DNA of 33,758 nt from Gemmatimonadales bacterium. GTDB taxonomy: Bacteria; Gemmatimonadota; Gemmatimonadetes; Longimicrobiales; Gaopeijiaceae. Below the pieces are notes generated by a model. The model did not search any database, had not been told where the DNA came from, and was given only the letters and a program-made list of their open reading frames with translations. Shown here in pieces: positions 2 to 4,930 of the stretch. Numbering within the stretch: the stretch's first letter is position 1; every line of letters starts with the position of its first letter. The position numbers and the translations under genes are program-made. The DNA lies in assembly GCA_007692665.1 (NCBI GenBank), contig REBP01000145.1, positions 1 to 33,758 on the forward strand. The letters are read 5' to 3'.

Positions 2-163
2 CTGGCGATCGCGTTCCTGGATCAGGCCACCTTTTTCGGGATCGGCCACCTGATCAGCGAGGCCGTCTTCGTCGGTGGGCTGGCGTGGCTGGAGTGGGTC
101 CAGAGAGAGCAGCTTGCCGGAGGGGTGCGCTGGATTGGAACGGATTCCACGAATTGTAAATGA
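2..163 (+). CDS. C-terminal end of an unrecognised protein (partial, cut by window start)
   Basis: The frame is open from base 2 to a TGA at 161-163 and gives the last 53 residues of a protein that begins outside the window. Codons up to about base 133 have the strong G/C third-position bias of the real genes here, so I believe it is coding. The visible part is rich in aromatic and aliphatic residues, with a hydrophobic stretch around AVFVGGLAWLEW, so it could be the end of a membrane or membrane-associated protein. The last ten codons (from about base 134) lose the GC bias, which suggests the original 3' end was replaced when the ATPase remnant next to it arrived. I do not recognise the family. 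Confidence 0.45.
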   Translation: MAIAFLDQATFFGIGHLISEAVFVGGLAWLEWVQREQLAGGVRWIGTDSTNCK

Positions 164-173
164 GATTTACAAT
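153..173. promoter_or_regulatory. Perfect 9-bp inverted repeat just upstream of the ATPase remnant
   Basis: ATTGTAAAT at 153-161 and ATTTACAAT at 165-173 are exact reverse complements separated by GAG. The palindrome is AT-rich in a region that is otherwise very GC-rich, and it ends six bases before the ATG of the ATPase fragment at 180. The position fits an operator or a hairpin in the leader, and the base composition suggests it came with the ATPase gene. It also overlaps the stop codon of the upstream partial gene. Function is inferred from position and symmetry only. Confidence 0.6.
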
Positions 174-179
174 CGGTGC

Positions 180-323
180 ATGATCCCTCGCATCCTTCAC
201 CCGGTTCTGACCGAGGCCGCTCGATCCATGCCCGTGGTTGCGGTGGTTGGACCGCGACAATCGGGGAAGACCACCCTTTGCCGCGCCGCCTTGTCGTTCT
301 GCCCGCGGCGCGCGGGCCGGTGA
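180..323 (+). pseudogene. 5' remnant of an AAA ATPase gene (AAA_14/DUF4143-like)
   Basis: The first 47 codons read MIPRILHPVLTEAARSMP followed by a Walker A motif GPRQSGKTT (residues 24-32, bases 249-275), the classic start of the AAA_14/DUF4143 family of about 400-residue ATPases often linked to toxin-antitoxin-like or mobile loci. Family similarity continues only to about LCRAAL (base 293). After that the frame reads arginine-rich junk and stops at 323. Walker B, the sensor residues and the DUF4143 domain are all missing, so no working ATPase can be made. The start is chosen from the family's usual N-terminus and the palindrome just before it. The break coincides with the end of a second, opposite ATPase remnant. 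Confidence 0.7.
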
Positions 324-387
324 CGAGCACGCCCCCGGCGCGGCGGAGACGCGCTGCAATCATGGTGTCGACGATGCGAGGTTGCAC
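292..387 (-). pseudogene. 5' remnant of a second, opposite AAA ATPase gene (DUF4143-like)
   Basis: Read on the minus strand from a GTG at 385-387, the sequence gives MQPRIVDTMIAARLRRAGG then VLVTGPRAAGRTT, which matches the N-terminus of another DUF4143-ATPase subgroup (usually PRVVD, an amphipathic helix, then a Walker A). The Walker A occupies bases 292-318. The frame stays open further but shows no family resemblance past the TT. A G-rich run 6-11 bases before the GTG could be a ribosome site. This fragment and the plus-strand one meet with essentially no gap at about base 292, so two distinct ATPase genes have been joined head to head through their Walker A regions. Non-functional as it stands. 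Confidence 0.55.
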
Positions 388-570
388 GGAGGGCCCCCCG
401 GGACACGGACGACGCTTCACTGAGTACCCGCGGGCGGACCAACGAAGCGTACCCACAGCGATTAACGTTTCGTACTCGCATGGCATAACCTCTGGTACTC
501 GCGGCGGACAACACATGGTGCCGGGTCGGTAATGATCCAGGGGCACCCCGCGCCCCCGACTCCCCGCCTC
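388..570. other. Noncoding stretch, nothing recognised
   Basis: No frame here shows codon bias or a recognisable family. Base composition is lower in GC than the flanking genes, especially about 455-535, in line with the remnant ATPase region being decaying or acquired DNA. I see no strong hairpin or promoter. Confidence 0.4.
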
Positions 571-1823: not shown

Positions 1824-2345
1824 ATGTCTGACGAGCGTCGTGCACTGGACCACCTCTTCGGCCTGGCCTACGAAGAACTTCGCCGCCTGGCGGGACAGGT
1901 CCGCACCGCGGGGGACGGCGAGACGCTGAGCCCCACGGCCCTTGTCCACGAAGCGTGGATGCGCCTCGCAGGGTCGCCCGAACTTGGCGACCTCTCCCTT
2001 GTCCACTTCAAGCGCGTCGCCGCGCGGGCCATGCGTCAGGTCCTGGTCGACGCCGCCCGGCGTCGGGGGGCCGGCAAGCGCGGCGGGGGCGCCGCCGCCG
2101 TGACCTTCGACGATGACGTCGGCCTTGCCGACCGTCCCATCCACGACCTCCTGGAGCTGGACGCGGCCCTCGGCGAACTCGCACGCATGAGCCCACGCCA
2201 GGCGACGCTGGTGGAGGCCCGGTTCTTTGGAGGCATGGAGACCCGGGAGGCGGCCGAGTTCCTGGAGATCTCGGAGGCCACCGCCAACCGGGACTGGCGG
2301 GCGGCCAGGGCGTGGCTCTCGGGGCGACTCAGGGAGGAGGCATGA
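1824..2345 (+). CDS. ECF-type RNA polymerase sigma factor
   Basis: A 173-residue protein with the two conserved blocks of the ECF sigma-70-like family common in Acidobacteriota, Planctomycetota and Gemmatimonadota. Region 2 contains ALDHLFGLAYEELRRLAG and the diagnostic LSPTALVHEAWMRL; region 4 near the C-terminus contains MSPRQATLVEARFFGGM and the helix-turn-helix TREAAEFLEISEATANRDW that reads the -35 element. The N-terminus is short compared with relatives, which usually have about 15 further residues; no in-frame start with a good ribosome site lies upstream, so the ATG at 1824 is kept although it also lacks a clear Shine-Dalgarno sequence. Its stop overlaps the start of the Ser/Thr kinase gene as ATGA, so the two are translationally coupled, and the kinase is the likely regulator. 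No anti-sigma gene is adjacent. Confidence 0.88.
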   Translation: MSDERRALDHLFGLAYEELRRLAGQVRTAGDGETLSPTALVHEAWMRLAGSPELGDLSLVHFKRVAARAMRQVLVDAARRRGAGKRGGGAAAVTFDDDVGLADRPIHDLLELDAALGELARMSPRQATLVEARFFGGMETREAAEFLEISEATANRDWRAARAWLSGRLREEA

Positions 2346-4930
2346 GGCAGCCCCCGGACCCCGAGCGGTGGGAGCGCGTGCAGGCGCTCTTCCACGAGGC
2401 ACGGACCAGGCCCGAGGAGGAGCGCCGCGCGTGGCTCGAGGACGCGGCGCCGGAGGACCCCACCCTGCGCGCCGACGTCCTCCAGCTTCTCGGCGACGAT
2501 GCCCGGGAGTGGGGGCTCCTGGACGACGGCGTGGCGTCGGTGGCCAGGCAGATCCTCACGCGCAGGCCCGACCGGGACGTCCGGGGGGAGCGATTCGGCC
2601 CCTACCGGATCGTCTCCTTCCTCGGGGAAGGCGGCATGGGGGTCGTGTACCGGGTGGCCCGGGACGACCTCGGCATCGAGGCTGCGCTCAAGCTTCTCCA
2701 GGATGCGACGCTTTCTCCCTCCCGGCGGGCCCGCTTCCTCTCGGAGCAGCGCACGCTGGCCCGGCTCCGCCACCCGGGGATCGCCCAGCTCCTCGACGCA
2801 GGAACCCTGCAGGACGGTACGCCCTGGTTCGTCATGGAGCTGGTGGATGGCCGGCCCCTGGACGCCTGGCTCAGGGAAGGGGAGCGGACGCTGGATGCGC
2901 GCCTTGCCCTCTTCAGGGGAATCGGCGAGGCGGTGCGCCATGCCCACGCCCACGCCGTCATCCACCGGGACCTGAAGCCGTCCAACATTCTCGTCGACGA
3001 GGGCGGCACCCCGAAGCTCATCGACTTCGGGATCGCCAAGCACCTCGTGTCCGACGGCTTCACGGTCGGGAGTGAATCGCTGACCCGGACCGGAATGGCG
3101 CCCTTCACGCCGGGACATGCCGCCCCGGAACAGCTTCGCGGGGAGGAGGTGGGGATTCACACCGACGTGTACGCCCTGGGGGTTCTCCTCTTCCAGATCC
3201 TCGTCGGATCCCCTCCCTTCGACCTGGCCGGCCGCAGCGTGGCCGAGGCCGAGCAGATCCTGGTCCGGGGATCTCCGCCCCGGCCCTCGGAGCGGGCCGC
3301 GTCCCTCCGGCTTTCGCGGGGTCGCTGGGCCGACCTCGACGTGCTGTGCGGCGTGGCCATGCACCCGGACCCCGGACGCCGGTATCCCTCTGCCGAGGCG
3401 CTTCTCCGGGATCTGGATCACCTTCTCGCCGGGCAACCGCTCGAGGCGAGGCCGGATTCCGTTTCCTACAGGGCAGGAAAGTTCGCCCGGAGGAACCGGC
3501 TCCCCCTGGGCGTCGCCGCCGCCGGCCTGGTCCTGCTGGCGGGGCTGTCGGCCGGCTACACACGGTCCCTGGTTTCGGCCCGTGACGCGGCGCTCTCCGA
3601 GGCCGCTCGCGCGGAGCGCATCCAGCAGTTCACCCTGAACCTCTTTCGTGGCACCGACCCCGACTTTGCCCCGGCCGAGGGGCTCCGGGTCCTGGACCTG
3701 CTGGAGATGGGCGTCCAGGAAGCCCGGGCTCTCGAGGCCGACCCTGGACTCCAGGCAGGGATCTACCTCGCCCTGGGCGAGATCCATCGCCAGATCGGGG
3801 CCCTGGAGCGGGCCTCGGAGCTGCTTGCAGCGGCGCTGGAAATCCGCGAACGGCTCCGGGGCGAGTCCCACCCCGAAGTTGCCGAAGCGCGCATCGCCCT
3901 GGGGATGCTGAGGGAGGCGCAAGCCGACCTGGATGACGCCGAGCGCCTCACGGCAGGTGGTCTGCAGGTGGCCCGGGCCTCCCTCCCGGCTCGGCACCCC
4001 GCCCTGGGGCGCGCGCTGGCGGCGCACGGCCACGTCCTGGAGGCCCGCGGACGCTACGACGAAGCCCTTCCGCTGGTGGAGGAGGCCGTCCGTCTGCATC
4101 GGATCGGCGGGAGTGGCTCCCCCGAGCTTGCTTCCGCCCTGGGGCAGCTCTCGAACCTCCACTTCTACCTGGGAAATTACGCCGTGGCGGATTCCGTGTC
4201 CCGGGAGACCCTGGACCTCCACCGCCGCCTCTACGGGGACGCCCACCCGGCCGCGGCAGGCGATCTCATCAACCTGGGCGCCATCCGGTTCGAGCTGGGC
4301 GATGCCGTGGCCGCCGAGGGGCTCTTCCGGGAGGCCCTGGTGGTGCAGGAGCCCTGGTACGGCCGGAACCACCCCACCACCGTCGCGAACCTGACCATGG
4401 TGGGGCGTGCGCTGGTCCGCCAGGAACGCCTCGACGAGGCGAGGGAGATCCTCCGGGATGCGGAAGTCCGAGCCCGGGCCACGCTGGGGAACCACCACCC
4501 CCGGGTGGCCTCGGCACTCAACGAACTGGGACTGGTGGCGCAGCTTGGCGGGGAGTGGGATGAGGCGTCCAGGATCTTCCTCGAGGTGGTGGAGATCTAC
4601 GAGAGCATCTACCCCGAGGGTCACTACTACCTGGGGGTGGCGCGCTCGAACCTGGCAGGGACGCTTCAGGCCGGCGGAGATGCGGCCGGGGCCGAGGCCA
4701 TGTTCCGGGAGGCGCTGGAGATCTACCGGGCCTTCCTCCCCCCGGGCCACCAGCTCGAGGGGATCGCCTGGATCCGGCTTGGCGGCGCCCTCCTGGCCCA
4801 GGGCCGCACCCCGGAAGCCGAGGAGGCGCTTGTCCGAGGCCGCCAGGTCCTCGAGACACAGGGTGCGAGCCCCGCATGGGTCGAGCGGGCGGACGAGCTC
4901 CTGGCGCGGGCCCGGTCCACCGAGGGGTGA
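2342..4930 (+). CDS. Membrane Ser/Thr protein kinase with C-terminal TPR repeats
   Basis: An 862-residue Hanks-type kinase. Residues 1-80 form a charged cytoplasmic region. The kinase domain (about 86-365) has a glycine loop GEGGMG (95-100), the ATP-contacting Lys117 in AALKLL, the catalytic HRDLKPSN (208-215), DFG (228-230), the activation segment ending HAAPEQLRG, and DVYALGVLLF. A single membrane segment lies at about 387-407, and the remaining 450 residues are TPR-type helical pairs (for example ALGEIHRQIGALERASELL and ALGQLSNLHFYLGNYAVAD), expected outside the cytoplasm or as a protein-binding platform. All key kinase residues are present. The start is set by GGGAGGAGG just before the ATG and by the 4-bp overlap with the sigma factor stop. 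It probably phosphorylates the co-encoded sigma factor or a linked regulator; the target is inferred from the operon. Confidence 0.93.
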   Translation: MRQPPDPERWERVQALFHEARTRPEEERRAWLEDAAPEDPTLRADVLQLLGDDAREWGLLDDGVASVARQILTRRPDRDVRGERFGPYRIVSFLGEGGMGVVYRVARDDLGIEAALKLLQDATLSPSRRARFLSEQRTLARLRHPGIAQLLDAGTLQDGTPWFVMELVDGRPLDAWLREGERTLDARLALFRGIGEAVRHAHAHAVIHRDLKPSNILVDEGGTPKLIDFGIAKHLVSDGFTVGSESLTRTGMAPFTPGHAAPEQLRGEEVGIHTDVYALGVLLFQILVGSPPFDLAGRSVAEAEQILVRGSPPRPSERAASLRLSRGRWADLDVLCGVAMHPDPGRRYPSAEALLRDLDHLLAGQPLEARPDSVSYRAGKFARRNRLPLGVAAAGLVLLAGLSAGYTRSLVSARDAALSEAARAERIQQFTLNLFRGTDPDFAPAEGLRVLDLLEMGVQEARALEADPGLQAGIYLALGEIHRQIGALERASELLAAALEIRERLRGESHPEVAEARIALGMLREAQADLDDAERLTAGGLQVARASLPARHPALGRALAAHGHVLEARGRYDEALPLVEEAVRLHRIGGSGSPELASALGQLSNLHFYLGNYAVADSVSRETLDLHRRLYGDAHPAAAGDLINLGAIRFELGDAVAAEGLFREALVVQEPWYGRNHPTTVANLTMVGRALVRQERLDEAREILRDAEVRARATLGNHHPRVASALNELGLVAQLGGEWDEASRIFLEVVEIYESIYPEGHYYLGVARSNLAGTLQAGGDAAGAEAMFREALEIYRAFLPPGHQLEGIAWIRLGGALLAQGRTPEAEEALVRGRQVLETQGASPAWVERADELLARARSTEG

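Follow-up and report, generated by a model that had tools for sequence, protein, structure and literature searches.

A palindrome before a truncated DUF4143 ATPase gene as a probable autoregulatory operator that travels with the gene

What does a perfect palindrome do a few bases before the start codon of an ATPase gene? The site in question lies near the beginning of a DNA stretch of 33,758 nt from a Gemmatimonadales bacterium (the whole stretch is called the window here), whose first base is base 1 of contig C253 of the source genome (G000). The first-pass annotation proposed that this palindrome might be an autoregulatory or insertion-target site travelling with DUF4143 ATPase genes, that it would then mark a selfish module, and that this module might have replaced the end of the upstream gene. 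The features on which the argument rests are the following.

2..163, + strand: 3' end of the upstream gene, which by eye looks like a membrane protein; its stop codon TGA (161-163) lies within the palindrome.
145..150, + strand: putative, weak -35-like element TTCCAC (TTGCAC in the relatives L153 and L154), 17 nt before TACAAT, from comparison.
153..173, + strand: palindrome, here named the class-A operator of the DUF4143 ATPase, from the sequence, shuffles and genome scans.
168..173, + strand: TACAAT, a -10-like element in the right arm of the palindrome, with a putative promoter role.
180..323, + strand: relic A, the N-terminal part of an AAA_14/DUF4143 ATPase reaching slightly beyond Walker A (homology 180-293), followed by nine unrelated codons and a stop.
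292..381, - strand: relic B, which probably encodes the N-terminal part of another ATPase (PRIVD...GPRAAGRTT), cut off at Walker A and facing relic A, from similarity.
424..502, - strand: four GYGRGTAC copies preceding relic B at spacings of 23, 23 and 25 bp, similar to a direct-repeat operator, from a repeat scan.

The palindrome, ATTGTAAAT-GAG-ATTTACAAT, is a perfect 9+3+9 repeat at 153-173 on the + strand, and the ATG at 180-182 starts six bases past its right arm, exactly as first described. With up to three mismatches allowed, the window has no second copy, and none of 100 dinucleotide shuffles contains one. The sequence TTGTAAATNNNATTTACAA has a single exact match in the 4.23 Mb source genome and is absent from all 120 other genomes of the same family that were searched.

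What follows the palindrome is only part of a gene. The first-pass annotation spoke of an ATPase gene and missed both its truncation and the second ATPase-like fragment that it faces. Starting at ATG 180, the frame comprises 47 codons with a stop at 321-323, and homology covers 38 residues, which are 81.6% identical to the L154 ATPase and 68% identical to the ATPase of L149/L151. Its match to AAA_14 (E 1.8e-4) lies under the curated cut-off, with only Walker A retained. When the full L149 ATPase was searched against the window's own assembly, the relic A stretch was the sole match, and the DUF4143 domain was not found in this genome; the window thus holds a relic and not a member gene. On the minus strand, positions 381 down to 292 encode PRIVDTMIAARLRRAGGVLVTGPRAAGRTT (relic B), whose closest counterpart outside the window is the L193 ATPase (51.7% identity over 29 residues, E 0.007); this short piece matched no AAA family in Pfam. 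The best pair score of the GYGRGTAC copies was reached by 16 of 2000 base-composition shuffles. Taken together, both relics indicate that two convergent ATPase-like units lost everything past Walker A and now meet at about 292-297. We infer that the window copy was destroyed by deletion, an assembly error being the alternative. In the source genome the ATPase looks dead: its control site and first 38 codons remain, and the operator would now be a fossil.

Several observations concern the surroundings of these relics. A DUF6252-family protein (Pfam) is encoded beside them at 571-1680 on the minus strand, followed on the plus strand by an ECF sigma factor at 1452-2345 (Pfam) and by a long frame at 2312-4930 that by eye resembles a serine/threonine kinase with repeats. 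Outside the window, at L193, two such ATPase genes from different subfamilies stand in tandem.

That the module replaced the end of the upstream gene is possible. Homology of this gene stops at residue 39-40 of 53, at about base 121, and the last ~13 residues have none. Counted from the last shared block, its tail is 11 and 7 residues longer than those of the homologues at L243 and L244 (n=2). The longer tail and the early end of homology weakly suggest a replaced end; on the other side, C-terminal tails vary and the comparison rests on two homologues.

Intact relatives carry an AAA_14 domain with Walker A and B. In the L149 protein, AAA_14 spans 18-133 (E 3.5e-24) and DUF4143 spans 175-334 (E 4.2e-47), a combination that we take to be COG1373. 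The same protein matches the PADLOC model PDC-S01 (E 4e-105), so that PDC-S01 and L149 belong to one protein family, of which the window copy is a relic. Neither the key Walker residues nor E314, D316 and E329 of a PD-(D/E)XK motif vary among 23 relatives selected for diversity, and K331 is nearly invariant. The N-terminal half of DUF4143 was modelled as a winged helix (pLDDT 78). MarR-type repressors lead the weak Foldseek list for this model, with a best E of 0.004 and no matches at E <=0.001, and the best VIA score was middling (Z 8.2), a fold match that shows no function. ORC and Cdc6 chains were among the Foldseek matches. The full-length model is poor (pLDDT 59.9) and its fold matches are therefore only suggestive. 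A sequence search of the PDB gave generic ATPase similarity only. We describe the family as a candidate phage-defence gene, PDC-S01, predicted to combine an AAA+ ATPase, a winged helix and a PD-(D/E)XK motif.

A nearly identical site occupies the same place in three close relatives of the window: GATTGTAAATCGCGTTTACAATCCGTGCATG in L153, GATTGTAAGTGAGATTTACAATCCGTGCATG in L154 and GATTGTAAATCAGATTGACAATTGATGCATG in L149/L151. Two members of the same small clade, L152 and L177, are without a class-A site. Scanning public genomes for exact TTGTAAATNNNATTTACAA yielded at least 115 loci, most of which are AT-rich sequence where an exact match means little. Five of these loci (L023, L035, L065, L066 and L118) contain a strong ATPase gene by the ATPase profile, and in all five the palindrome is correctly oriented and lies 8-77 nt upstream of the matched domain. 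We then counted class-A motifs (up to two mismatches) in nine class-A genomes, of which four were reached through the palindrome (G431, G440, G456 and G457), four through the protein (G151, G167, G190 and G376), and one is the source genome itself. Exactly one site was present in each of the nine, several of which are incomplete drafts, and the reversed-pattern control gave no match in the same nine. By its coordinates, each site lies just upstream of a DUF4143 ATPase, or of the relic in the case of the source genome. One of the nine genomes is that of an archaeon, and G457 has 27 DUF4143 matches yet a single class-A site. The same motif accompanies one protein clade across phyla, and the upstream dyad proposed at the outset turns out to be recurrent and linked to the gene.

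We then compared upstream regions across the family. For the relatives, the start codon was placed approximately, 66 nt upstream of Walker A, and the dyad score of a gene is that of its strongest inverted repeat within the 135 nt preceding this approximate start. The first set comprised 89 non-redundant genes from the window's phylum together with L023, L035 and L066. A score of at least 9 was reached by 31 of these 89 genes, by 10 of 300 other genes in the same loci and by 6 of 1780 shuffles; leaving aside the loci preselected by the palindrome, the difference persists (28/86 vs 10/300, p 9e-13). The second, cross-phylum set was drawn from 50 genomes reached through the palindrome loci; PF13635 was found in 30 of them, with up to 36 matches in one. 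Here, 28 of 85 genes scored at least 9, relative to 11 of 188 control genes and 56 of 1700 shuffles, and 17 of 85 scored at least 12, relative to 2 of 188 controls and 3 of 1700 shuffles. Without palindrome-preselected loci, the counts were 24/81 vs 11/188 at a score of at least 9 (p 5e-7) and 15/81 vs 2/188 at a score of at least 12. The controls of this second set come from palindrome-containing loci, which makes the test conservative. Strong upstream dyads are therefore 5 to 10 times as frequent at DUF4143 genes as at controls, among genes that were mostly the best family scores per list and not a random draw, with many of the matches coming from lists of capped length. The first-pass annotation had staked its reading on such an enrichment upstream of homologues, and the enrichment is there. 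A chance origin of the palindrome, which we also considered, is excluded by the window shuffles and by the dyad enrichment in both sets.

What these genes share is not a single palindrome. Dyads are specific to clades, as exemplified by ATTTGCATTT-n-AAATGCAAAT, GGCTGATTCAAGAT-nnn-ATCTTGAATTAGCC, GATTGTCATTYGGATTGACAATC and TTGCAATTTCGGTAT...ATACCGATATTGCAA, and paralogues within one genome bear different dyads. Some genes have direct repeats instead, and many have neither: about two thirds of the DUF4143 genes lack a dyad of score >=9, and direct repeats explain only some of these. The idea of one palindrome common to all DUF4143 ATPase genes has accordingly been dropped. We also rejected a single shared motif, as cross-phylum k-mers gave no common operator word. 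The word TTGYAAW was found in 25 of 86 upstream regions of the first set against a shuffle mean of 4.4, and in 22 of 80 regions of the cross-phylum set, where the shuffle mean was 15.4 and the largest shuffle value 23. Nine plasmid or phage copies, out of 32 matches listed, were inspected by eye: seven have a dyad, one has direct repeats and one is ambiguous.

Of 206 genes, 34 have direct repeats (period 18-26, score >=10) in front of them, as do 6 of 1030 shuffles, the shuffles preserving base composition only and the 206 genes including duplicate loci. Members of this class (L210, L202, L203, L207, L194, L208, L205, L227, L218, L229, L219 and L201) carry repeats of ~21-23 bp resembling TTTCAnTTGGmCG directly before the ATG and again past the stop codon in the same orientation, where they are possible element ends. 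Similar direct repeats of the TTGGmCGA type stand before a DUF4143-type ATPase gene in another phylum, on plasmid pRPC2 of Rhizobium sp. BG4 (L314). Gene numbers per genome can be high. DUF4143 matches number 36 in G445, 27 in G457 and 25 in G427; among the g2 genomes (G017, G139, G174 and others), at least 12 DUF4143 genes were scored in many, and there were up to 36 first-look candidates.

To place the operators on the protein phylogeny, a tree of 196 proteins was built with FastTree, and operator classes were assigned by loose patterns. Seven of the eight class-A members fall in one clade with a support of 86 (98 without L066). This clade spans several phyla: besides members from the window's phylum it includes L035 from an Acidobacteriota MAG, L066 from a deltaproteobacterial MAG and L065/L324 from a proteobacterial MAG. 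Class B (nested), class C and other operators fall in this clade as well. The archaeal L023 belongs to a sister clade. The fewest changes on the tree were 7 for the 8 members of class A, 2 for 16 in class B, 5 for 11 in class C, 4 for 9 in class D, 1 for 10 in class E, 7 for 17 in the direct-repeat class and 2 for 3 in class G. These counts suggest that class A is old and was repeatedly modified, rather than being a marker of single origin, and operator classes are unclean markers of descent. Comparing operator similarity with domain identity revealed no signal specific to the winged helix (partial rank correlations of 0.04 and 0.11 for winged helix vs ATPase domain).

Whether the site moves with the gene can be judged from close copies. 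We collected pairs with at least 80% DNA identity over at least 900 nt of the gene and removed places that had been fetched twice, which left 117 pairs, not independent of each other, from 65 genes and 15 families. In 49 of these 117 pairs, 80-95% identical and from 6 of the 15 families, both flanks are unrelated. Only the 5' flank is unrelated in 8 further pairs and only the 3' flank in 14, both flanks are shared in 26, and 20 were left unclassified. Three-prime breaks lie within 20 nt of the stop codon in 52 of 63 cases (again from pairs that are not independent), and five-prime breaks lie 20-150 nt before the approximate start in 44 of 57. Copies that are 80-95% identical often share the gene and its upstream site only, breaking at the stop codon. 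The same unit is thus observed at unrelated sites with sharp ends, and the proposal that the site travels with the gene is borne out by close copies that keep their upstream site between unrelated flanks.

Sites without the unit are informative as well. The L225 unit sits between two convergent genes. In G067, the counterpart of the upstream gene (84% identity) gives way within ~10 nt to a member of the downstream gene's family (66% identity), with neither unit nor dyad. This is a probable empty site of the L225 unit, the second gene belonging to a multicopy family whose orthology is not sure. At the same site, G240 and G053 have internally deleted ATPase relics, and the sequence is a different one in G139, G303 and G098. 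In 9 of 11 relatives no unit follows the upstream gene of L227, and the other 2 have relics; the downstream flank there is not conserved. The search for empty sites near L154 and L153 found none: in G192 the flanks lie on different contigs, and in G309 the match is confined to the upstream gene and ends with its stop codon. On mobile replicons, one tblastn query detected the family in 372 of 72,556 plasmid and 7 of 50,697 phage records, and a scan of viral_contigs with peptide patterns found no relative. The two flanks of most units share nothing above control. Inverted matches between flanks averaged 7.57 relative to 7.44 in control pairs, with L156 (17 nt) as an exception, and direct matches of score >=11 were found in 13 of 105 units, mostly of the direct-repeat class.

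Individual loci show further traces. At the L225 site, L293 (G064:C118) has an orphan dyad, TTTGCAAATCGGGAATGACGTTCCGGTTTTGCAA, without an ATPase gene, where a relative carries the unit. In L145 (G054:C51), which belongs to the dyad class, a 28-nt direct repeat (27/28 identical) occurs ~110 nt before the start and 22 nt past the stop, and L238 has a 15-nt flanking direct repeat. The matches at L145, L238 and L156 are possible target duplications or insertion scars. L297 (G304:C537) is a relic with repeats at both ends and about the last 25 ATPase codons between them.

How would such a site act? In L153 and L154, TTGCAC lies 17 nt before TACAAT, and TACAAT lies 6 nt before the ATG. Agreement with the -35 consensus is 3 of 6 positions in these relatives and 2 of 6 in the window, where a consensus promoter scan called no promoter at the palindrome. 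Judging from L153 and L154, a promoter overlapped by the dyad and almost without leader is plausible; as TACAAT is six bases from the ATG, a nearly leaderless mRNA would be expected. Dyads or repeats just before the gene are enriched and associated with protein clade, and we favour the reading, with a probability of roughly 0.7, that the palindrome serves as autoregulatory operator for a module consisting of one gene, which encodes an AAA+ ATPase, winged helix and PD-(D/E)XK protein, and that it travels with this gene. The ATPase would bind its own dyad as a dimer through the winged helix and, once bound, would repress the promoter whose -10 element lies in the right arm of the palindrome. Titration or switching of the ATPase, for example by invading DNA, would then derepress the gene; the window copy would have been lost by deletion. 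The operator reading is based on comparison of sequences, and the ATPase itself would be the presumed binder and repressor, and perhaps mobiliser, of its unit. Promoter, operator and gene fit in ~1.25-1.4 kb and no other gene is evidently needed, so that the unit can work wherever it lands.

The palindrome might instead be an insertion or homing target, cut by the nuclease so that the gene is copied beside it. This would agree with the conserved nuclease motif and with copies that are homologous from about the dyad to the stop codon; the direct-repeat class, with similar repeats upstream and past the stop, resembles an element with two ends, and the flanking repeats of L145 and L238 could be target duplications. 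All nine class-A genomes, however, have one site each and none of these is unoccupied. Less firmly, the probable empty site in G067 lacks the dyad, and the flanks of most units match no more than those of control pairs. We consider a target role improbable: of the two functions first proposed for the site, autoregulation is the better comparative reading, whereas the insertion target has against it the single site per genome and a probable empty site without dyad. Another possibility is that a global regulator of the host binds the palindrome and controls these genes by happenstance. MarR-, ArsR- or Fur-type regulators typically bind AT-rich dyads of such a length, but a global regulator would be expected to have many sites where one per genome was found. 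Moreover, the motif accompanies one protein clade in the window's phylum, in an Acidobacteriota MAG and in proteobacterial MAGs, and paralogues in one genome have different dyads, which makes a host regulator very improbable. That the palindrome is a terminator or 3' hairpin of the upstream gene is hardly credible; the upstream stop codon does lie inside it, but the window scan called no terminator and the position of the site is fixed relative to the ATPase ATG beside differing upstream sequences.

A last alternative concerns mobility and is compatible with the operator reading. The units may lack any mobility mechanism of their own and owe their spread to usual horizontal transfer combined with loss of the gene, which we hold to be slightly favoured by the odds. 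In general, the units were seen without a mobility enzyme at their side, the family occurs in the small numbers of phage and plasmid records given above for one tblastn query, and relics with internal deletions were present at both sites examined. The clustering of breaks near the stop codon, in pairs that are not independent, and the count of up to 36 DUF4143 matches in one genome speak against it. The palindrome may or may not signal a selfish module, as first supposed; the family is at present filed as a candidate phage-defence gene.

The autoregulatory operator favoured here has relatives among known systems. Autorepressed toxin-antitoxin and restriction-modification loci also have a compact promoter-operator before the gene and are mobile as single loci. 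Unlike in these systems, no second protein was seen, and the presumed repressor would be the ATPase-nuclease itself. Dedicated repressors of defence genes reportedly exist, such as RptR. Cdc6/Orc1-type initiators likewise combine AAA+ and winged helix, and the ~22-23 bp repeats of the direct-repeat class recall those of iteron-binding replication proteins; in contrast to both, the DUF4143 ATPase bears a PD-(D/E)XK motif.

PMC12988326 describes PDC-S01 as an ATPase fused to PD-(D/E)XK that is very common and was transferred multiple times across domains. It is given there as the fourth most common defence in prokaryotes, with 29,494 bacterial and 9,986 archaeal copies in one survey, validation pending for most such defence candidates. 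The terms palindrom-, operator, promoter and autoregulat- are absent from the main text of that paper, and our literature search found no description of an operator upstream of DUF4143 genes. In PMC4406477, a table in a section on how plasmid DNA alters expression gives a value of 6.6 for a Thermus AAA_14-DUF4143 gene. Relative to the PDC-S01 description, the upstream dyad, its clade specificity and the gene-sized boundaries of the unit are added here.

A private, clade-specific operator before the start codon would predict the DNA bound by each protein and would provide a readout of when the gene switches on. It would also serve as a sequence signature for spotting dead copies, as in the window, and would allow a test of whether PDC-S01 genes defend the host or themselves. 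A more speculative reading, which we think rather unlikely at present, is that DUF4143/PDC-S01 genes are not host defences and instead are self-contained selfish modules, each a self-repressing ATPase-nuclease with a private DNA address. Copies of the operator on rival or incoming DNA might then titrate or redirect the enzyme, such that rivals with the same address would exclude each other and those with different addresses could coexist, by the dozens in one genome; in the direct-repeat class, an address at both ends of the unit may serve mobilisation.
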